A DNA stretch of 64,000 nucleotides, taken from contig PBSL01000074.1 of assembly GCA_002726205.1 (NCBI GenBank), positions 1 to 64,000 on the forward strand, read 5' to 3'. The number at the start of each line of letters is the position of its first letter. Within the stretch, counting starts at the first letter, position 1. The notes below the pieces were generated by a model that did not search any database, was not told where the DNA came from, and worked only from the letters and a program-made list of their open reading frames with translations. Below are positions 30,134 through 43,309 of the stretch, piece by piece. A program made the position numbers and the translations under genes. The DNA comes from Planctomycetaceae bacterium. Lineage in GTDB: Bacteria > Planctomycetota > Planctomycetia > Planctomycetales > Planctomycetaceae.

Positions 30134-31348
30134 TCAGCGTTCCTGGGATTGGTAGACCGCCTCGGCCGCCGACTGCAGGTTCTCGCGGCAACTGTCGTTG
30201 GTGGCGGCCGAGGTGAGAACCGTGCAGATCGGCCGGCCGGCGGGAATCGTCGTGCCTTCGTGGGGGACGTCGGCGAGGTACCAGGGGGAAGCGGCCGTCA
30301 CGGGTTCCGGGGACGAGAGTGGCAGGTCCCGGATCTCGAGGTCTGCGGGAGCAAACAGAACCGCCTTGCCGTGACAGGCAAGGCCGTCGCTTCTCGCCAT
30401 GCGACTCGTCTCGGAGCGGGCGCGAGTTGTCGAGAAGACTGCCAGATGTTCGGCGATCATCGATTCGCCACTGGCCGATTCCAGGACCTCGGCCGAGGCG
30501 GTGTAGCGTGGATTGATCTCGACTGGCCAGGCCCCGTGATCGTTGATCACCATGTCGATGCCGAACAGTCCTCTCAACCCGGCAGCAGACACCAGGACTT
30601 CGGCCAGCCGACGGACCCGGTCGTCGATGGGCTGGGGCAGGGCCAGGGGGCCGATCGAACCGCACCACGCCCAGCGGGTCGCAGACAACCACGGTTGGCC
30701 CACCAGCTGGATCGTTGTTCCCAGCAGGCGTGCCGATCGACCGTCCCCCACGCACAATGCGGCGGCCGCCCGGCCGTGGATCTTCTGTTGAAACACCAGC
30801 CCGCCGCGGTCGCGATCCGGCAGCGATTCCGGAGAAAATTCCGGGGACCAGTCGACCACTCCCGAACCACCACCGCTGCGTGTTGAGCGGAGGATCCAGT
30901 TCCCATCTCGAGGTGGTGGATCGGTGCCGGGCCTGAGTGTCGGGCAGGGCAGGTCGTGGGCCTGACAGAGTCGAGCGACCCACCAGGGATCACGGATCAA
31001 TGTCAGCACGTCGGAGGGGTTGCCCCAGAGAGGGCCGTTGGCTGCCAGGGCGTCGATGATCTCGGGATGATTTTCCAGGGCGCCGGTGTAGACCCGCGGG
31101 CAAGGCCCCGGCAGGCCCTCGGCCAGCTGCCCGACCGCGGCGGGAAGCCCGCGGGGGTAATCACCGACGGTGATGACCCGCGTCAGCGAGGCCAGGTCCC
31201 GGTCGCCGAACAGATCGGCACACAGTGGTCGCCAGCCGGCCCGGATCGCCGACCACGCTGCCGCCCGTGTGCTGGCGCCGACGAGAATCAGTGGAGGCGC
31301 CGATGGATCGGGCGGGGCCGGTTCGACTGGGAATGGAGATGACGGCAT
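30134..31348 (-). CDS. ATP-grasp protein of the C1 block
   Basis: A 404-residue protein with the ATP-grasp fold. The phosphate/ATP loop is RSTRSGGGSGV, and the metal-binding end motif is GIDMVINDHGAWPVEINPRYTAS. ATG at 31348 gives a short proline-rich N-terminus; an open frame extends to 31513 but overlaps the fae upstream region. ATP-grasp ligases of this general kind (OrfY-like) accompany fae in tetrahydromethanopterin-linked C1 gene clusters of methylotrophs and planctomycetes. A role in pterin cofactor assembly is inferred from that association only. It is divergent from fae. Confidence 0.82.
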   Translation of the reverse strand: MPSSPFPVEPAPPDPSAPPLILVGASTRAAAWSAIRAGWRPLCADLFGDRDLASLTRVITVGDYPRGLPAAVGQLAEGLPGPCPRVYTGALENHPEIIDALAANGPLWGNPSDVLTLIRDPWWVARLCQAHDLPCPTLRPGTDPPPRDGNWILRSTRSGGGSGVVDWSPEFSPESLPDRDRGGLVFQQKIHGRAAAALCVGDGRSARLLGTTIQLVGQPWLSATRWAWCGSIGPLALPQPIDDRVRRLAEVLVSAAGLRGLFGIDMVINDHGAWPVEINPRYTASAEVLESASGESMIAEHLAVFSTTRARSETSRMARSDGLACHGKAVLFAPADLEIRDLPLSSPEPVTAASPWYLADVPHEGTTIPAGRPICTVLTSAATNDSCRENLQSAAEAVYQSQER

Positions 31349-31404
31349 TGGGACGGGCTGGTGCTGGAATTCCCCGCGGTGACGTGGTATCAAGGTCGCC
31401 TGAG

Positions 31405-31410
31405 GATAAT
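31405..31410 (+). promoter_or_regulatory. Possible -10 element of fae
   Basis: GATAAT (5 of 6) in the 158-base divergent gap, about 95 bases before the fae ATG. No convincing -35 lies at standard spacing. fae itself has an excellent ribosome-binding site, GAGGAG at 31492-31497. Confidence 0.3.
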
Positions 31411-31506
31411 GGAGAGCCGGGATCGAGGCTTGCCTCCGCTGGCGAAGTCGGCGGGACGGGTGAGTGAACCCGGTGACGGGACACAACTGTTGAGGAGAGA
31501 ACCGAG

Positions 31507-32055
31507 ATGTCAATTCTAGTCGGTGAAGCCCTGTGTGGTGATGGAAATGAAGTTGCTCATATCGATCTGATGATCGGCGACAAGTCGGGGCCGGTCGGTA
31601 CCGCGTTCGCCAACGCCCTGGCGCGGCAGTCGGCCGGGCACATTAACCTGCTGGCCGTGCTGACACCCAACCTGGCCGTCAAGCCCTCGACCGTGATGAT
31701 TACCAAGGTCACGATCAAGGGGGCCGGGCAGGCCGTGCAGATGTTCGGTCCGGCCCAGAAGGGTGTCGCCAAGGCCGTTGCCGATTGTGTCGCCGAGGGG
31801 ACAATTCCCGCCGACCAGGCCGAAGACCTCGTCATCGTCTGCGGTGTCTTCATCCACTGGCTGGCCGAGGACGACGCCAAGATCCAGCAGTACAACTACG
31901 AGGCGACGAAGTTGTCGATCGAGCGGGCGATGGCCAACAATCCCTCGGCCGCGGAGATGGTCGAGCAAAAAGATACGGCCAAGCATCCGTTTGAAGCGGC
32001 CGACGGGCCGGCTGAAGAGTCGGCTGAAGAGTCGGCTGAAGGCGACGGCGACTGA
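31507..32055 (+). CDS. fae: Formaldehyde-activating enzyme
   Basis: A 182-residue Fae that condenses formaldehyde with tetrahydromethanopterin to methylene-H4MPT. The catalytic histidine is His18 in [10 protein letters not shown], and the conserved [23 protein letters not shown] and [14 protein letters not shown] blocks are intact. The C-terminus adds a short acidic tail with repeated ESAE units absent from well-studied Fae proteins. The methylene-H4MPT dehydrogenase gene is next on the same strand, 105 bases away and separated by a strong hairpin. Confidence 0.97.
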
Positions 32056-32160: not shown

Positions 32161-33024
32161 ATGAAATCGATCCTGATCCAGCTTGATACCGATCCGCAGC
32201 CGAGCGTGTTTGACCGCGTTGTCGCGATCGACGCCGGAATTGATCATCTGTTTGCCTATGGAGGCGTGACGCCGGAGACGGTCGAGTCGCTTGTCCACGG
32301 GGCCATCTTCACCCGCGGTGTGACCGATCTCTCGCAAACGGCGATCTTTGTCGGCGGCAGCGATGTGATGGCCGGGGAACGCGTGTTTGCCGCGGTGCAG
32401 CAGGCCTTCTTCGGTCCGATGAGGGTGTCGGTGATGATGGATTCCAACGGGTCCAACACGACGGCCGCGGCCGCGGTACTGAGAGCCCGGCGGCACGTGT
32501 CGCTGTCGGGAACCGTTGCCGTGGTGCTGGGCGGGACCGGGCCGGTTGGGCAGCGGGCCGCGGAATTGTTGGCTCTGGAGGGGGCGGAGGTGAGGCTGGG
32601 GAGTCGCTCCCAGGAGCGGGCGGCGGCGACCTGCGCGACGATCTCTGCCCGGCTGCCCGAGTCGCGGCTGGTTCCGGTTTCGACAGCCGATCCCGATTCC
32701 ATCCCGGCAACGCTCGCCGGAGCCTCGACGGTGATCGCCGCGGGCGCGACGGGTGTGCAACTGGTATCGGTCGAGGCACGATCTGGTGCCGCAGACCTGC
32801 AGGTCGCCATCGATCTCAACGCCGTTCCCCCCCTGGGAATCGAGGGGGTCGAGATGACCGACAAGGCCGTCGATCGCAACGGGGTTGCCTGTTACGGGGC
32901 GATCGGGGTTGGCGGGACAAAGATGAAAATCCACACGGCCGCTTTGAAGCGGCTGTTTGATGGGTCCGAAGGGGTGCTCGACAACGAGGCGATCTATCGC
33001 ATCGGCGAGTCGCTGGAGAGCTGA
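32161..33024 (+). CDS. mtdC: NAD(P)-dependent methylene-tetrahydromethanopterin dehydrogenase (MtdA/B/C family)
   Basis: A 287-residue dehydrogenase that oxidises methylene-H4MPT to methenyl-H4MPT. The N-terminal Mtd domain carries SNGSNTTAAAAV, and the Rossmann loop is VLGGTGPVGQRAAE. Planctomycetes are known to carry the MtdC subclass, so that symbol is used, but the subclass needs a phylogeny. It follows fae on the same strand, giving consecutive enzyme steps. Two sets of overlapping hairpins lie between its stop and the BamA gene. Confidence 0.88.
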   Translation: MKSILIQLDTDPQPSVFDRVVAIDAGIDHLFAYGGVTPETVESLVHGAIFTRGVTDLSQTAIFVGGSDVMAGERVFAAVQQAFFGPMRVSVMMDSNGSNTTAAAAVLRARRHVSLSGTVAVVLGGTGPVGQRAAELLALEGAEVRLGSRSQERAAATCATISARLPESRLVPVSTADPDSIPATLAGASTVIAAGATGVQLVSVEARSGAADLQVAIDLNAVPPLGIEGVEMTDKAVDRNGVACYGAIGVGGTKMKIHTAALKRLFDGSEGVLDNEAIYRIGESLES

Positions 33025-33091: not shown

Positions 33092-33128
33092 CCAGCAGGT
33101 GCCGTTCTGCTGGCACCCCTCTCTTTTT
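33092..33128 (+). terminator. Terminator-like hairpin with an alternative fold before BamA
   Basis: CCAGCAG (33092-33098) pairs with CTGCTGG (33107-33113). Alternatively GGTGCC (33098-33103) pairs with GGCACC (33112-33117), closer to the pyrimidine run CCTCTCTTTTTCT. The BamA start is 31 bases further on. It could end the fae-mtdC transcript. Confidence 0.4.
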
Positions 33129-33158
33129 CTCCAAGCGTTCAAACAACGAGATCCTGCC

Positions 33159-36041
33159 ATGCCGGCTGTCCTCCGCGACCGGCTCCTGCGCCGTTTCCCG
33201 GTCTCCGCTGCTGCCGGTTGGGCCGTCGCGCTGGCCTGTGGGGTTGTTGCCTGCGTCGGCTGCCAAACGGGACCGTTGATCCGGGGTCAATCGCCCCCGG
33301 TCGCTGCAGGTGGCGAGACGGGCGATCAGTGGGATTCGCGACCGACGATGCCGGATGCCCGGCAGGCCGCGCCGAGAACGCTTGATCTGCCCCCCGTCGA
33401 TGGACCCGTCGAAAAGAAACAGGCACGACCGCAACCCGGTAAGCGACCCGATCTCTCGAAACAGACACTCGTCGCCATCGTGGTCGAAGGCAATCAGTCG
33501 ATAACGACGAAAGACATTCTCCGCCTGCTTCGTCTGCAACCGGGCCGTATGATCACCGAGGCCCAGGTCCGCGACGATGTCCGTCGCCTGTTCGCCACGA
33601 GATGGTTCTTCAGTGTCGAACCGTTCTACCGCAATGACGTCGACAATCCGGGCGGGTTGACGCTTGTACTGCGTGTCGTCGAACGGCCGATGATCCGGGC
33701 GATTCGCTACGAGGGAAACAAGCACTTCGATGATGAGGAACTGACCGAGGCCACCGGGCTGAGGATCGGCAGTCCCTACGACATCAGTGCCAACCGTGAA
33801 GCCGTTCGAAAACTCGCCCAGATGTACCGTGACAAGGGATTCGCCTTCGCCAGGGTCGAGCTCGTCAAGGGCGACCGCCGCGGCGACCGCGACGTGGTGT
33901 TCCGGGTCGAGGAGGGGCAACAGGTCGTGGTGGCCGACGTGACCTTCGAGGGCAACAACTACCGCTATGCCACGGCGGGGATCCTGCGAACCAAGACCAA
34001 GACCAAGCGGGCGATGCTCGGTGTTGATCTGTTTGGCGGCAAGTTCAAGCCCGAGACGATTCCCCAGGACAAGCAGGCCCTGTTGGAGTACTACCGCGGA
34101 CTGGGGTTCTTCGACGTCAAGATCACGCACCGCGTTTCGACTGCCGATGTCGTCTTCAACCCGTTTCGGCAGGGCGACGGCAACCTCACGATCGAGTACA
34201 CGATCAGCGAGGGAACACAGTACAAGATCCGCACCGTCTCGTTACGGGGGAACAAGGTCTTTTCGACCAAGACCCTCGCCGATGAACTGCAACTGACGGC
34301 CGGTGAGTTCTTCAACAAACGGTACCTGGCCGACGACGTGCGCAAGATGAAGGACCGGTACGGGCGACTGGGGCGGCTTTTCGCGCGGGTCGAACCATTG
34401 ACCCGTTTCGATGATTCCCAGCCGGGCGTTGTCGATGTGATCTACGAGATCGACGAGGACCGCCCGTACCTGATCGGTCCCATCGACGTGAACTTCCACG
34501 GGGACAATCCTCACACGAAAGAGACCGTCGTTTTGAACCGGTTGCTGATCCAGCCCGGAGAGGTGGCCGATCCGAAACTGATTCGACGTAGCGAGCGTCG
34601 GCTTGCCGGCATGATCTTCGAACGGGGACCGATGAACGGTCCACGGATTCGAGTGCGGCCGATGGAACCGGAAGAACTGGTGCCCAAGCGGATCCCCGCG
34701 GATCCACTTTCAGGTTTGATTCCTCGGACGCGGTTCGACCGGGACGTGTTTGACCCGTCGGGCCTTGATCGAATCGACACCGGCCTGGATGCGGTCGTCT
34801 CCGGACCTCCGTTCGAACGAGGCCCGGAGTTGGAGTCAGAGATCTTCCGGGCACAGAGCAAGGAACCGATCCCCGCCGCGCAACCCTACAACCCGATCAT
34901 CGAGAACTCTCCACTCGGCGACCCGTTCGGCTCGCTTGGTCGGGCGCTGGTCGACCCCAATTACGGGCTGCTCGATGTCGACATCGACGTGACCGAAGCG
35001 CGGACGGGCCGCCTGATGTTCGGGGCCGGCGTCAACAGCGACTCGGGAGTGGTCGGATCGATCGTACTCGACGAGAACAACTTCGATCTGCTCCGTCTGC
35101 CCTCGAGCATGCAGGACATCTCCGACGGCACCGCCTGGCGGGGGGGGGGACAGCGGTTGCGGATCGAGGCGATGCCGGGCAATTACTTCAGTCGCTATCT
35201 GCTCAACTGGTCGGATCCCTACTTCCTGGACACCGACTTCAGCCTCAGTGTCGCCGGATTCTACTACCAGCGGTTCTACTTCGACTGGCACGAGCACCGT
35301 ACCGGGGGACGGGTCACACTGGGTCGGCAGTTGACCCGCGAGTGGTCGTTGTCGGGGACGCTGCGACTGGAGAGCGTGGATATCGACAATCCGGATGTGC
35401 CGACACCCGACCTGTTACTGGCTGCACTTGGCGAGACCTGGTTTACCAGCGGCCGCGTGTCCCTGGCTCACGATACGCGTGACAACGCCTTCCTGCCCAC
35501 CGAGGGGCATTTCCTGCAGGCGAGCTTTGAGCACGCCTTCGGTGATTTCAGTTTTCCACAGTTCCGCGGGGATGCCAAGCAGTACTACACTCTCTCGGAA
35601 CGTCCCGACGGCAATGGCCGCCAGGTGCTGTCGCTGTCGAGCCAGGTGGGCTGGACCGGCGTGGACACGCCGATCTACGAGCGGTTCTTCGCCGGTGGCT
35701 ACCAGAGCTTCCGGGGATTCGACTTCCGTGGCGTCTCGCCTCGCCAGGACGGGTTCCCCAACACCGGCATCGGTGGTCGTTTCATGGCACTGGGTAGTGT
35801 CCAGTACCAGTTCCCGATCACCGCCGACGAGATGATCTCGGGTGTGGTCTTCACCGATTTCGGTTCGATTGAAGACAGGATCACGCTCGACGACTTTCGG
35901 CTGACACTGGGCGGGGGCTTGCGGGTGATGATTCCCGCGATGGGGCCGGTTCCGATTGCCGTTGACTGGGGTGTCCCCCTGGTCAAGCAGGATTTCGACG
36001 ACGAACGGATGTTCAGCTTCTACATCGGAATCAACCGCTAG
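33159..36041 (+). CDS. bamA: BamA/Omp85-family outer membrane assembly protein
   Basis: About 960 residues. A signal sequence ending VVACVGC could be a lipoprotein signal. Several POTRA-like repeats follow from about residue 100 (LVAIVVEGNQSITTKDIL; MIRAIRYEGNKHFDDEEL; TVSLRGNKVFSTKTL; IGPIDVNFHGDNPHTKE). A proline-rich insertion (about residues 490-610) precedes the C-terminal beta barrel, whose lid-loop motif RGFDFRGVSP is near residue 850, the counterpart of the VRGF/Y motif. It would insert beta-barrel proteins into the outer membrane. ATG at 33159 is preferred over 33099 because the latter overlaps the hairpins. Confidence 0.9.
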   Translation: MPAVLRDRLLRRFPVSAAAGWAVALACGVVACVGCQTGPLIRGQSPPVAAGGETGDQWDSRPTMPDARQAAPRTLDLPPVDGPVEKKQARPQPGKRPDLSKQTLVAIVVEGNQSITTKDILRLLRLQPGRMITEAQVRDDVRRLFATRWFFSVEPFYRNDVDNPGGLTLVLRVVERPMIRAIRYEGNKHFDDEELTEATGLRIGSPYDISANREAVRKLAQMYRDKGFAFARVELVKGDRRGDRDVVFRVEEGQQVVVADVTFEGNNYRYATAGILRTKTKTKRAMLGVDLFGGKFKPETIPQDKQALLEYYRGLGFFDVKITHRVSTADVVFNPFRQGDGNLTIEYTISEGTQYKIRTVSLRGNKVFSTKTLADELQLTAGEFFNKRYLADDVRKMKDRYGRLGRLFARVEPLTRFDDSQPGVVDVIYEIDEDRPYLIGPIDVNFHGDNPHTKETVVLNRLLIQPGEVADPKLIRRSERRLAGMIFERGPMNGPRIRVRPMEPEELVPKRIPADPLSGLIPRTRFDRDVFDPSGLDRIDTGLDAVVSGPPFERGPELESEIFRAQSKEPIPAAQPYNPIIENSPLGDPFGSLGRALVDPNYGLLDVDIDVTEARTGRLMFGAGVNSDSGVVGSIVLDENNFDLLRLPSSMQDISDGTAWRGGGQRLRIEAMPGNYFSRYLLNWSDPYFLDTDFSLSVAGFYYQRFYFDWHEHRTGGRVTLGRQLTREWSLSGTLRLESVDIDNPDVPTPDLLLAALGETWFTSGRVSLAHDTRDNAFLPTEGHFLQASFEHAFGDFSFPQFRGDAKQYYTLSERPDGNGRQVLSLSSQVGWTGVDTPIYERFFAGGYQSFRGFDFRGVSPRQDGFPNTGIGGRFMALGSVQYQFPITADEMISGVVFTDFGSIEDRITLDDFRLTLGGGLRVMIPAMGPVPIAVDWGVPLVKQDFDDERMFSFYIGINR

Positions 36042-36104: not shown

Positions 36105-37667
36105 ATGATTCTCGAGGGATTGGTGACGACCGTCTCGCCCTCCGGCGAACTCAACCTGGCACCGATGGGGCCCGAGGTCGACGGGTCGATGTCGCGGTTC
36201 GTGCTGCGGCCGTTCCAGACGTCAACGACTTTCAGCAACCTGGTCGAGCGGTCCGAGGGAGTATTTCACGTCACCGATGACGTGCTGTTGCTGGCTCACG
36301 CGGCGACCGGAACCGTGGTACCGCCCCCCGAGACCTTCGCAGCCGAAGTGGTCCAGGGGCGGGTGGTTGCCGGGGCCTGCCGGTGGTACGAGTTTCGGAT
36401 CGAAGAGATCGACACCAGCAGCGAGCGGGCGGAATTGACGGCTCGGGTTGTCCATTCGGGTCGGCTGCGTGATTTTGCCGGCCTCCACCGCGCCCGCCAC
36501 GCGGTCGTGGAAGCGGCGATCCTGGCCACCCGTGTTCACCTGCTGCCCCCCGATGACCTCCGCCGGCAATTTGCCGACCTGGCCGTCATCGTCGACAAGA
36601 CCGCCGGACCGCGGGAACGGGAGGCATTTGAATTGCTCGAAAGTCACGTCGTCGAGGCGATGGATCATCCCCTGACGGTGAAAGTGTCGACGGGGGCACG
36701 ACTGCACTTGGGGCTGCTTTCCCATGGAGGAAACAGCCCGCGGCAGTTCGGCGGGGCCGGGATGATGATCGAGGATCCGGGTGTTCGACTCACCGCCAGC
36801 CCGGCCGACCACGACCAGGTCGTGATGGTGTCCGAGGGTGACCGGATCGAGGATTCCAACCGCGCCAGTCGATGGTTGGAGCGGATCGGTGCGCACGGCG
36901 ACTGCCGGCTGCCCGGCGTTCGTATTGAGATCAGCGACGTGATTTCCCCGCACGCCGGTCTGGGCTCGGGCACGCAATTGGCATTGGCCGTGGCGCGTGC
37001 GGTGGCGGGGTTGAGTGGTGCCGGTTTCCGGGCAGTCGAACTGGCCGCAGCGGTCGGGCGTGGTGAACGGTCGGGCGTTGGGATCCATGGATTCGAACAC
37101 GGAGGATTTCTGGTCGATGCCGGAGGCCGTACGGGGCAGGTTGCCGCGTTGGTTGCTCGTGCCGATGTTCCCGCTGCGTGGCGGATCGTGCTCGCCGGGC
37201 CGGCAACCGGCAAGGGACTTACCGGCGAGGCCGAGCGCGAGGCGTTCGCCCGCTGTCGCGAGATGCCGTGCGAAGCGACCAGGGCTCTTAGCAGCCTGTT
37301 GTTGCAACAGGTGCTTCCGGGTTTGAACGAGGGTGACATCGACGAGGCCGGTGAGGGACTGTTCCTGTTCGGTCGGCTGGTGGGCGAGTCGTTTGCGGCG
37401 GTGCAGGGGGGATGTTACGCCGATCCGCAAATGGCGTCACTGGTCGAGTGGGTTCGCGGCAAGGGCATCCGCGGCGTCGGCCAGTCATCGTGGGGTCCGA
37501 CGATCTGGATGCTGTGTCCCGACCGGGCCACGGCCGACTCGCTGGCCGCCGATGTCGCCGGTCGCCCGGGAGTGGGCTGGTGCCGCGTCGTGCGGCCGTT
37601 GAACCGGGGCGCTGATGTGCGGGCCGTGATCGATCAGCCCCGCAGGACCCTGTCGAAGAGCGGGTAG
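36105..37667 (+). CDS. DUF447 - beta-ribofuranosylaminobenzene 5'-phosphate synthase fusion
   Basis: A 520-residue two-domain protein. Residues 1 to about 190 match DUF447 (ILEGLVTTVSPSGELNLAPMGPEV), a flavin-reductase-like archaeal family. Residues from about 192 are a GHMP-kinase-fold beta-RFAP synthase: KVSTGARLHLGLLSHGG, the GHMP glycine/serine motif SPHAGLGSGTQLALAVARA, and QSSWGPTIWML near the end. Beta-RFAP synthase makes the first committed precursor of the methanopterin arm from PRPP and p-hydroxybenzoate or p-aminobenzoate, so it belongs with fae and mtdC upstream. TATCCT lies six bases before the ATG. The 3' end overlaps the convergent hydrolase by 34 bases. Confidence 0.88.
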   Translation: MILEGLVTTVSPSGELNLAPMGPEVDGSMSRFVLRPFQTSTTFSNLVERSEGVFHVTDDVLLLAHAATGTVVPPPETFAAEVVQGRVVAGACRWYEFRIEEIDTSSERAELTARVVHSGRLRDFAGLHRARHAVVEAAILATRVHLLPPDDLRRQFADLAVIVDKTAGPREREAFELLESHVVEAMDHPLTVKVSTGARLHLGLLSHGGNSPRQFGGAGMMIEDPGVRLTASPADHDQVVMVSEGDRIEDSNRASRWLERIGAHGDCRLPGVRIEISDVISPHAGLGSGTQLALAVARAVAGLSGAGFRAVELAAAVGRGERSGVGIHGFEHGGFLVDAGGRTGQVAALVARADVPAAWRIVLAGPATGKGLTGEAEREAFARCREMPCEATRALSSLLLQQVLPGLNEGDIDEAGEGLFLFGRLVGESFAAVQGGCYADPQMASLVEWVRGKGIRGVGQSSWGPTIWMLCPDRATADSLAADVAGRPGVGWCRVVRPLNRGADVRAVIDQPRRTLSKSG

Positions 37668-41111: not shown

Positions 41112-42419
41112 CTATTGGTCATGGTCGTGGTCGTGGTCGTGTGAGTGGTCGTGGTCGTGGTCGTGGTCGTGTGAGTGGTCGTGTGAGTGGTCGTGTGAGT
41201 GGTCGTGTGAGTGGTCGTGTGAGTGGTTGGCGGGTGTCGGTGACTGGTTCGGAGCGGGTATGAAGGCCGCGTTGGCCGCCCGGTAGACATCACGCAAGGG
41301 GATTCCCGCCGCTGCAGCCACGCGGGCACAGTCCTCGAATTCCGGTGTGAAGACTTCACGTTCGCCCGACCGCCATCCTCGCTTTCCCGCAACCGGTCCC
41401 CAGGGCGTCTCGACAATCGTCGACTCTCGCAATCTCACCGATCGTTCGAGAAGGTGCCGGCGGATACCAAATGTCGCGGTTTCGTCAAAGAGAATCGATT
41501 CCATTCGCTCCTGGTCGGCCTGTCGGCAGAGAACCGAGAGCACAACTCCGGGGCGATCTTTCTTCATCTGGGCGGCCACTGCGAAAACATCCAGCGCACC
41601 GGCTTCCAGCAACCGTGTCCGGACATAACCAATGGTCTCGCCCGGGACATCATCGAGGTTGGTTTCCAGGAGCCAGACACGGTCAGTGTCCGGTGAAATC
41701 GTCGCGGTGCCCACGAACAGCCGCAACAGGTTGGCTCGCTGTGGAAAGTCCTTTGTGCCGGCACCGTAACCAATCTGCTCGATCGTCATCTCCGGTAGAC
41801 TCGCGAACCGATCGACCACCGTCCTGACAATCGCCGCACCGGTTGGAGTCGTCAGTTCGGCCTCGATGGGCACATCGACCAGCGGGATACCCTTGAGCAG
41901 TTCCGCGGTGCCGGGAGCGGGAACGGTGCAGATGCCATGGTCGATGTGTATCTGGCCACGGCCCGTCGGGATGGGGCTGCAGACGATCGTGTCGGCTCCC
42001 AGCAGATCGAACCCGATGGCAGCACCAACGATATCAACGATCGAGTCGATGGCGCCGACCTCGTGAAAGTGCACCTGGTCGATTGTTGACCCATGAACGC
42101 GGGCCTCGGCCGTCGCCACCGCTGTGAAGATCTCTCTGGCCAGCGTCTTCTGCGAGGCGGTGATCCGGTCGCCCCGGTCAAGCAGGGACTCGATGTCGGA
42201 CAGGTGCCGGTGGGCGTGCTGTTGGGGATGTTCGACGTGAACGTGGGTTGCTCGGAAACCACCCTTGACGACGGTCTGGCACTCCAGGCGGACACCATCG
42301 AGCCCCATCGAGTCGATGCCCGAACGGATCAATTCGATGTCGACGCCGGCGTCGATCAACGCTCCCAGCGTCATGTCGCCGCTGATCCCAGTTGAGCAAT
42401 CCAGGTAGACTGTCCGCAC
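41112..42419 (-). CDS. larC: Nickel-insertion protein LarC with His/Asp tail
   Basis: About 435 residues. LarC inserts nickel into the pincer nucleotide cofactor of lactate racemase and related enzymes. The N-terminal LarC1 region starts RTVYLDCSTGISGDM and includes VHFHEVGAIDSIVDIVG; the C-terminal region includes ETNLDDVPGE and RQADQERMESILFDETATFGIRR. GTG at 42419 follows GGGGAG. The protein ends in a run of HSHD and HD repeats with 18 histidines, a probable nickel store. LarB, LarE and LarA are not in the window. It appears to be the last gene of the minus-strand run that begins with batA at 53022. Confidence 0.93.
   Translation of the reverse strand: MRTVYLDCSTGISGDMTLGALIDAGVDIELIRSGIDSMGLDGVRLECQTVVKGGFRATHVHVEHPQQHAHRHLSDIESLLDRGDRITASQKTLAREIFTAVATAEARVHGSTIDQVHFHEVGAIDSIVDIVGAAIGFDLLGADTIVCSPIPTGRGQIHIDHGICTVPAPGTAELLKGIPLVDVPIEAELTTPTGAAIVRTVVDRFASLPEMTIEQIGYGAGTKDFPQRANLLRLFVGTATISPDTDRVWLLETNLDDVPGETIGYVRTRLLEAGALDVFAVAAQMKKDRPGVVLSVLCRQADQERMESILFDETATFGIRRHLLERSVRLRESTIVETPWGPVAGKRGWRSGEREVFTPEFEDCARVAAAAGIPLRDVYRAANAAFIPAPNQSPTPANHSHDHSHDHSHDHSHDHSHDHDHDHDHSHDHDHDHDQ
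41118..41226 (-). repeat. Tandem hexamer/12-mer repeat encoding the LarC His/Asp tail
   Basis: Runs of ggtcgt and gtgtgagtggtc units. On the minus strand they read CAT/CAC-GAC and CAC-TCA-CAC-GAC, i.e. HD and HSHD repeats. The array stays in frame with larC and could change length by slippage. Confidence 0.9.
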
Positions 42420-42451
42420 GGCAACTCCCCGAAACCCCGGGCACCAGATTC

Positions 42452-43309
42452 CTAGCCACCATCCTGCGCCCGGCACGCAGCCAGGATAGCCTCCACTCGT
42501 TCCGGACCACTCGCGGGAATATCCGTTGCAGCCACGGCCGGAATTGCCTCTGCTGCCGCACTCTCGTCGGCCGATTCCTCGACATCGCCTGCCGGTGTTT
42601 CTTCAGCCAGTGTTTCTTCAGCCGGTGTTTCTTCAGCCGGTGTTTCTTCAGCCGGTGTTTCTTCAGCCGGTGTTTCTTCAGCCGGTGCCGCCCCGTCACC
42701 GTCCTGCAAGCGAGCCAGTTCCAGTGGCGAGAGGTTACTGGTGTCGGCTGGGGCTGAAGCTTTCGGGGCAGCTTCCTGGGCCGGAGCTTCGGGGGCGGCG
42801 GCGGGAGCTTCGGTGGCAGGTGTTTCGCTGACCGCGGTGGCGGCTTCGCTGTCCTGCAGTCGCGCCAATTCCAGCGGCGAGAGGTTGCTGGTATCGGCCG
42901 GGGCGGGAGTTTCGGGGGCGGCGGCGGGAGCTTCGGTGGCGGGTGTTTCGCTGACCGCGGCGTCGGCTTCACTGTCCTGCAGTCGCGCCAGTTCCAGCGG
43001 CGAGAGGTTGCTGGTATCGGCCGGGGCAGGAGGTTTCGCGGCGGGTGTTTCCGTGGTCGCAGCGACCGACGGTTTGTCGTCCGGTGTTGATTCGGCAGGT
43101 GTTTCGACGGTGACAATCTTCAGGTACTGAGGATGGATGTCGTACCAGCCGATGTCCTCGCTTCCTTTGAATTCGACCAGCGCCTGACCATTCATGCTGA
43201 CCGTCTTGACTTGACCGGTCAGACCGGTAAACCGCTTGAGTTCCAAGGGCGAATCTTCGACCTGAACGAACCGCCCGGTCCATTCCTGCTTGAGCAATTC
43301 GATGGACAT
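42452..43309 (-). CDS. SH3-like domain protein with SPLELARLQD repeats
   Basis: A 285-residue protein. Residues 1-70 look like a small SH3/KOW-type barrel (GRFVQVEDSPLELKRF, TGQVKTVSMNGQALVEF, GWYDIHPQYLKIV). The rest is Ala/Pro/Glu-rich, with NLSPLELARLQD repeated exactly at residues 101-112, 142-153 and 192-203, a degenerate SPLELKRF at 20-27, six AEETP-type units at about 210-240, and a final helix (ERVEAILAACRAQD). I recall planctomycete proteins with this SH3-like start and helix end but no known function. The repeated motif may be a docking peptide (inference). It lies 32 bases upstream of larC. Confidence 0.75.
   Translation of the reverse strand: MSIELLKQEWTGRFVQVEDSPLELKRFTGLTGQVKTVSMNGQALVEFKGSEDIGWYDIHPQYLKIVTVETPAESTPDDKPSVAATTETPAAKPPAPADTSNLSPLELARLQDSEADAAVSETPATEAPAAAPETPAPADTSNLSPLELARLQDSEAATAVSETPATEAPAAAPEAPAQEAAPKASAPADTSNLSPLELARLQDGDGAAPAEETPAEETPAEETPAEETPAEETLAEETPAGDVEESADESAAAEAIPAVAATDIPASGPERVEAILAACRAQDGG
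42590..42692 (-). repeat. 15-bp tandem repeat encoding AEETP units
   Basis: About six near-identical copies of gtgtttcttcagccg within the SH3-like protein gene, giving Ala-Glu-Glu-Thr-Pro repeats (one unit has Leu in place of Pro). Confidence 0.9.
42700..43030 (-). repeat. Three long direct repeats carrying the SPLELARLQD motif
   Basis: Three blocks of about 50-60 bases, at roughly 42706, 42852 and 42972, are nearly identical at nucleotide level. The flanking gcggcgggagcttcggtggc segments also repeat, which points to recent duplication inside the gene. Confidence 0.8.

Follow-up and report, generated by a model that had tools for sequence, protein, structure and literature searches.

A single open frame in a planctomycete contig joins DUF447, a protein family in which we found no member with an assigned reaction, to beta-RFAP synthase, and so raises the question of what DUF447 does for this enzyme. 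The question matters because tetrahydromethanopterin (H4MPT) is a one-carbon carrier in methanogenesis and in much of methylotrophy, and several steps of its biosynthesis are without an assigned gene. An inventory from 2011 left about seven methanopterin proteins unassigned (PMC3087415). Our literature search for DUF447 and COG2457 found no relevant paper, and part of the association between DUF447 and methanopterin may already be known, given earlier mutant work in M. extorquens. Here we analysed the locus in its 64,000-nucleotide stretch of DNA (the window) and its counterparts in other genomes.

Results

The fused gene and its neighbours

The features of the window on which the analysis rests are as follows.

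30134 to 31513, reverse strand: ATP-grasp protein, divergent from fae (PF02655, E = 8e-16; tblastn E = 6e-19 to ATP-grasp genes of proteobacterial H4MPT clusters)
31507 to 32055, forward strand: fae, formaldehyde-activating enzyme (TIGR03126, E = 3e-78)
32161 to 33024, forward strand: mtdB/mtdC-type methylene-H4MPT dehydrogenase (Mpt_N, E = 2.4e-32; tblastn to Azospirillum MtdB, 6e-29)
33099 to 36041: Omp85/POTRA outer-membrane assembly gene, between mtdB/C and the fusion
36105 to 37667, forward strand: fused gene of 520 aa, DUF447, short linker and beta-RFAP synthase (open frame with ATG start; same fusion in L031 and L032)
36114 to 36461, forward strand: DUF447_N, residues 4-119, flavin-reductase-like split barrel with predicted FMN binding (Pfam E = 1.2e-18; AF2 model and Foldseek match to FMN-bound 2nr4, 2iml and 2ptf)
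36486 to 36641, forward strand: DUF447_C helical domain, residues 128-179 (Pfam E = 8.5e-14; R129, A133, E136 and R143 in 52/52 sequences)
36651 to 36680, forward strand: variable linker, residues 183-192 (junction codons, high pN)
36681 to 37613, forward strand: beta-RFAP synthase domain, GHMP fold, residues 193-503 (TIGR00144, 133.7 bits; best Foldseek match ForT, 6yqq/8ap0)
36720 to 36743, forward strand: pABA-binding loop with R213 and S206 (ungapped hand alignment with primer sequences in PMC6787355)
36951 to 36977, forward strand: H283-xGxGxGTQ291 loop, predicted to bind the PRPP phosphate (all 54 sequences agree at the H, G, T and Q positions)
37482 to 37499, forward strand: Q460-xSWGP465 motif (invariant in 54 sequences, x unscored)

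The preliminary description of this DNA had read the frame as DUF447 (residues 1 to about 190) followed by beta-RFAP synthase (from about 192), and domain searches of both halves, which it had proposed as a check, agree with it on the domains and on the boundaries. DUF447_N (67.5 bits) and DUF447_C (51.8 bits) exceed their Pfam gathering cut-offs of 24 and 24.8, the C-terminal half is covered by GHMP_kinases_N/C, and TIGR00144 (beta_RFAP_syn) matches residues 193-503 above its cut-off of 113.5 bits (E = 8.4e-39). The linker between the two halves is about 10-15 residues long. The protein scores 153.5 bits on the equivalog model NF040726, short of its cut-off of 328, and has no match to TIGR02699 or TIGR02700 (AfpA/DmrX family). 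Given that RFAP-family proteins of Azospirillum (186) and Thiodictyon (155) also miss the NF040726 cut-off within H4MPT clusters, the cut-off seems to have been set on other, probably archaeal, members; the haloarchaeal RFAP-family proteins tested likewise fall below it.

The fusion had also been described as sitting with fae and mtdC, and indeed fae and an MtdB/MtdC-type gene are found 3-4.6 kb upstream on the same strand, with the Omp85/POTRA gene intervening. Four other planctomycete loci (L031, L032, G299 and G385) likewise have fae and mtdB/C some 4-6 kb ahead of DUF447, and the two genes are also near it in G361 and G377. The gap between mtdB/C and DUF447 in those four loci is similar in size to the one filled by the Omp85/POTRA gene in the window. 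The genome of the window carries an H4MPT pathway (fae, mtdB/C, mch and a DHPS-like protein), and its DUF6513 and PabB genes adjoin each other on another contig. Further along the window, positions 41112-42476 encode a LarC-type nickel insertion protein with a long His-Asp-rich C-terminal tail, and positions 42452-43309 a predicted protein in which NLSPLELARLQD and PAEET units recur.

A genuine fusion that recurred

A sequencing error or frameshift, earlier named as what could undo the fusion, is ruled out by three assemblies and by purifying selection. Two other MAGs, L031 and L032, have the same fusion in frame, with proteins 74% and 71% identical to that of the window. Both halves have a dN/dS of roughly 0.09-0.19; compared between the window and L031, each half shows a dN of 0.19-0.20 and a dS of about 1.1. 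No in-frame ATG, GTG or TTG codon occurs at the junction of the fused genes in G064 and G133, so separate halves can hardly be made there by a restart.

Of the 47 planctomycete pairs, 9 are unlinked and 4 fused; in the other 34 the two genes adjoin on one strand. DUF447 is always the upstream partner in the 38 adjacent or fused pairs. L033 and L035 (the G274 locus) appeared as fusions in tblastn and are actually adjacent genes that overlap at an ATGA-like junction. An overlap of this type is one step short of fusion. On a tree of concatenated DUF447 and RFAP synthase from 50 planctomycete pairs, the fused state requires three changes, and a single fused clade, with one origin of all fusions, is rejected (p-AU = 1.6e-4). 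The fusion therefore recurred; with the long branches and modestly supported nodes of this tree, the number of gains is probably 2 or 3.

The adjacent genes extend the association. Six genomes (G121, G327, G339, G353, G369 and G381) have the run DUF6513-PabB-DUF447-RFAP synthase, and four loci (G205, G333, G274 and L033) have PabB-DUF447-RFAP synthase. The DUF6513 proteins have sub-threshold matches to TIGR00284 ("dihydropteroate synthase-like"), so the longer run can be read as supply of pABA, synthesis of RFAP, DUF447 and, putatively, condensation with the pterin.

Co-occurrence with RFAP synthase

DUF447 exceeds its cut-off in 47 of 392 planctomycete genomes, and RFAP synthase occurs in the same 47; the search for the latter gave only weak GHMP-type matches (E > 1e-6) in six further planctomycetes. 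Fisher's test for the co-occurrence across the 392 genomes gives p = 6e-62, a value that ignores shared descent. G127 has a DUF447 match of 21 bits, below the cut-off, which a planctomycete profile failed to recover and which we attribute to chance. Mch was found in 50 of the 392 genomes: the 47 with DUF447, two genomes of low completeness (55% and 62%), and G352. This last, 95% complete, has adjacent FhcD-type and divergent Mch genes (L108, G352:C1:1008000-1020000); no DUF447, RFAP synthase or DHPS-like DUF6513 was found in it, and it may use another one-carbon carrier.

In a control set of 14 named genomes, the four with DUF447 are precisely the four with RFAP synthase (M. jannaschii, H. volcanii, S. 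acidocaldarius and M. acetivorans); three of these have Mch and two have DUF6513. The phylogenetic profile of DUF447 is thus that of RFAP synthase.

Structure models and conserved residues

The AlphaFold model of the whole protein (pLDDT 83, pTM 0.72) resembles ForT, an enzyme akin to beta-RFAP synthase, in its C-terminal half (Foldseek TM 0.83) and DUF447 structures in its N-terminal half. Modelled alone with AF2 (pLDDT 92), the DUF447 half matches 3b5m from Rhodopirellula baltica (Foldseek E = 2e-19, TM 0.84-0.90, 39% identity) as well as three archaeal DUF447 structures deposited with FMN (2nr4, 2iml and 2ptf). Next in the Foldseek ranking are the flavin reductases SMOB and HpaC and the nitroreductase NbaA (E about 1e-7 to 1e-6). 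By analogy with the archaeal structures, the DUF447 half of the window protein is predicted to bind FMN. Bacterial and archaeal DUF447 proteins differ greatly in sequence. Eight residues (E4, G22, T42, N45, R129, A133, E136 and R143) are shared by every one of the 52 sequences compared, those of Azospirillum and Halobellus included.

In MTH0830, R26 affects pABA binding, and D19 is the second pABA-site residue compared (PMC6787355). By ungapped hand alignment, R213 of the window protein corresponds to R26, and S206 occupies the position of D19, which varies in planctomycetes and is also Ser in ForT.

Loci in Proteobacteria and haloarchaea

A survey for adjacent or fused pairs had been set as a check on the association, and beyond the planctomycetes the proteobacterial and haloarchaeal plasmids covered here yield proteobacterial operons and a haloarchaeal pair. 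In the methylotrophy clusters of proteobacterial plasmids, an AfpA-like flavoprotein is followed by DUF6513, DUF447 and MfnB, with slight variations in this order; some DUF447 clusters are without the AfpA-like flavoprotein, and nearly all plasmids with close RFAP synthases also carry DUF447. Given that the methanotroph island is ordered orf19-orf20-afpA-orf21-orf22 (PMC3615186), and that Orf21 is MfnE and Orf22 is MfnB (PMC8141765), DUF447 is probably orf19 or orf20 by synteny.

A Halobellus limi plasmid (L067:7965-9667) has mer, DUF447, an RFAP-synthase homologue and metE in a row, and in Natrinema DUF447 and the homologue share one plasmid. Haloarchaea are reported to use folate, not methanopterin, and Haloferax HVO_2628 has been doubted as an RFAP synthase (PMC8305020). 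Since these reported folate users keep the pair, the link of DUF447 is to RFAP-type chemistry; haloarchaea may produce an aryl C-riboside or ribitol that has gone unrecognised.

Mesorhizobium and Aminobacter plasmids from Lotus (L132:6426-16658; L134) have an RFAP-synthase homologue beside SAICAR synthase and PurH, together with phosphoribosylanthranilate isomerase and a MutT-type gene. The Mesorhizobium homologue scores 192 bits on TIGR00144, as high as RFAP synthases. In the formycin pathway, ForT makes a closed C-nucleoside, which purine-like steps follow (PMC8724604); by analogy, a formycin-like C-nucleoside cluster in these Lotus symbionts is possible. DUF447 was not found on the plasmids with these clusters, as expected if the ribose ring stays closed.

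Discussion

The preliminary description had argued from the fusion, as a Rosetta stone, that DUF447 is implicated directly in methanopterin-precursor synthesis. That DUF447 belongs with this synthesis is supported, and chiefly by co-occurrence in 47 of 47 genomes and by operons. Taken by itself the fusion is weak evidence, since the genes that joined were neighbours beforehand, in some cases overlapping ones; it is the weakest leg of the argument, and the haloarchaeal pair stands as an exception.

With the two domains, their association, the recurrent fusion, the reductase-like fold and the FMN of the archaeal structures established, the reaction of DUF447, its substrate, its electron donor and its order relative to pterin attachment are what we infer. 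RFAP has a closed ribofuranose and methanopterin a 1-deoxyribitol, going by the title of White 2011 as it appears in PMC8141765, so a two-electron reduction is needed between them. DUF447 is tied to the enzyme before this reduction in planctomycetes, and to the condensing DHPS-like enzyme in Proteobacteria. Given its FMN-type fold, its place beside RFAP synthase or the DHPS-like enzyme, and the AfpA-type reductase already present in Proteobacteria, the ring-opening reduction is the best assignment by elimination. We suspect, at a probability of about 0.5, that the window protein has two activities in (dephospho)tetrahydromethanopterin synthesis, and that its DUF447 half is an FMN reductase for opening the ring of RFAP or pterin-RFAP.

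In this scenario, the C-terminal half would condense pABA (or 4-hydroxybenzoate) with PRPP to beta-RFAP, with loss of CO2, and the DUF447 half would act next, as an FMN-dependent reductase, on the aryl C-riboside. The ribofuranose ring would be opened at the benzylic C1'-O4' bond, where the para-amino group would push out the ring oxygen, probably giving an azaquinone-methide-like intermediate. This could take a hydride from FMNH2 to yield the 1-(4-aminophenyl)-1-deoxyribitol part of methanopterin. Such a route has an analogue in plants, whose benzylic ether reductases use NADPH as the donor. The substrate may be RFAP itself or its adduct with the dihydropterin from the DHPS-like protein (DUF6513/TIGR00284), and the fusion would make an existing partnership of DUF447 and RFAP synthase permanent. 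Several observations speak against the ring-opening model: the haloarchaeal pair despite the reported use of folate, the divergence of bacterial and archaeal DUF447, and the order of the pathway. Attachment of the pterin precedes reduction of the ribose in the pathway, an order that would suit a fusion to the DHPS-like protein better than one to RFAP synthase. More tentatively, DUF447 might be an FMN benzylic ether reductase that turns the ring of RFAP or pterin-RFAP into the deoxyribitol, a step of an ancient C1 cofactor pathway, and that planctomycetes repeatedly fused to RFAP synthase, the haloarchaeal pair making an unrecognised aryl C-ribitol compound.

The FMN-type fold would also suit a dihydromethanopterin reductase (H2MPT to H4MPT, the last step) that stands in where AfpA/DmrX and DmrA are absent, planctomycetes included. 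Consistent with this, AfpA (TIGR02699) exceeded its cut-off in none of the 12 H4MPT-type planctomycetes searched (G000, G373 and G299 among them), and Afp was not recognised in planctomycetes elsewhere (PMC5020050). However, an AfpA/MJ0208-like flavoprotein shares the proteobacterial operon with DUF447, so the two do different jobs there, which weakens the case for DUF447 as a replacement. The fusion partner, moreover, is the first committed enzyme and not a late one, and DUF447 is kept in haloarchaea, reported to be without methanopterin; we regard a role in this last step as improbable.

DUF447 could also partner RFAP synthase without opening the ring, as a flavin-bound structural, redox-sensing or regulatory protein or by acting on the benzoate precursor; phenol-to-aniline exchange, an example of the latter kind of step, is known from archaea. 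Its phylogenetic pattern, which follows RFAP synthase closely and not the pathway as a whole, the PabB genes adjoining it in several planctomycetes, and the pair in folate-using haloarchaea would all fit such a partner. Against this, the fold is that of flavin reductases, and the strict conservation of the polar residues E4, T42, N45, R129, E136 and R143 in all 52 sequences is enzyme-like, so that we think a partner of this kind unlikely. A neutral accident of neighbouring genes, with the DUF447 step elsewhere in H4MPT or methylofuran synthesis, would explain why most pairs are unfused and why adjacent ones overlap at ATGA-type junctions, and MfnB adjoins DUF447 in Proteobacteria. We give it little credence, given that three changes on the tree, the rejection of one fused clade and purifying selection on both halves stand against it, as does the exact tracking of RFAP synthase in the control genomes.

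Through its RFAP synthase profile, the operons shared in bacteria and haloarchaea and the repeated fusion, DUF447 is a concrete and assayable candidate for the reductive ring-opening. The single-chain fusion would be a convenient enzyme for work starting from pABA and PRPP.

Comparison with known systems

The window protein has the fold of the DUF447 family (PF04289/PF20766; 3b5m, 2nr4, 2iml and 2ptf), with both Pfam domains above cut-off. In the structures known so far, DUF447 is a protein of its own, about 200 aa long, whereas here it is the N-terminal half of a fusion. The flavin-reductase-like split-barrel proteins SMOB, HpaC and NbaA share the fold of DUF447_N but do not have the extra C-terminal helical domain. 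The AfpA/DmrB/DmrX dihydromethanopterin reductases are likewise FMN-type and act in the same pathway, but belong to an unrelated sequence family, and an AfpA-type reductase coexists with DUF447 in one proteobacterial operon.

The closest solved structure to the C-terminal half is ForT, the formycin C-nucleoside synthase (6yqq, 8ap0), which differs in that its substrate is a pyrazole, the ribose is left closed, and there is no link to DUF447 where such clusters were seen. With beta-RFAP synthase (MptG; TIGR00144; MTH0830, MJ1427, AF2089) the window protein has in common a full-length match, the predicted PRPP loop, QxSWGP and the pABA arginine. It differs in being fused to DUF447, in having Ser at the D19 position of MTH0830 and in lying below the NF040726 cut-off. 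In architecture, the fusion is a new version of an established enzyme.
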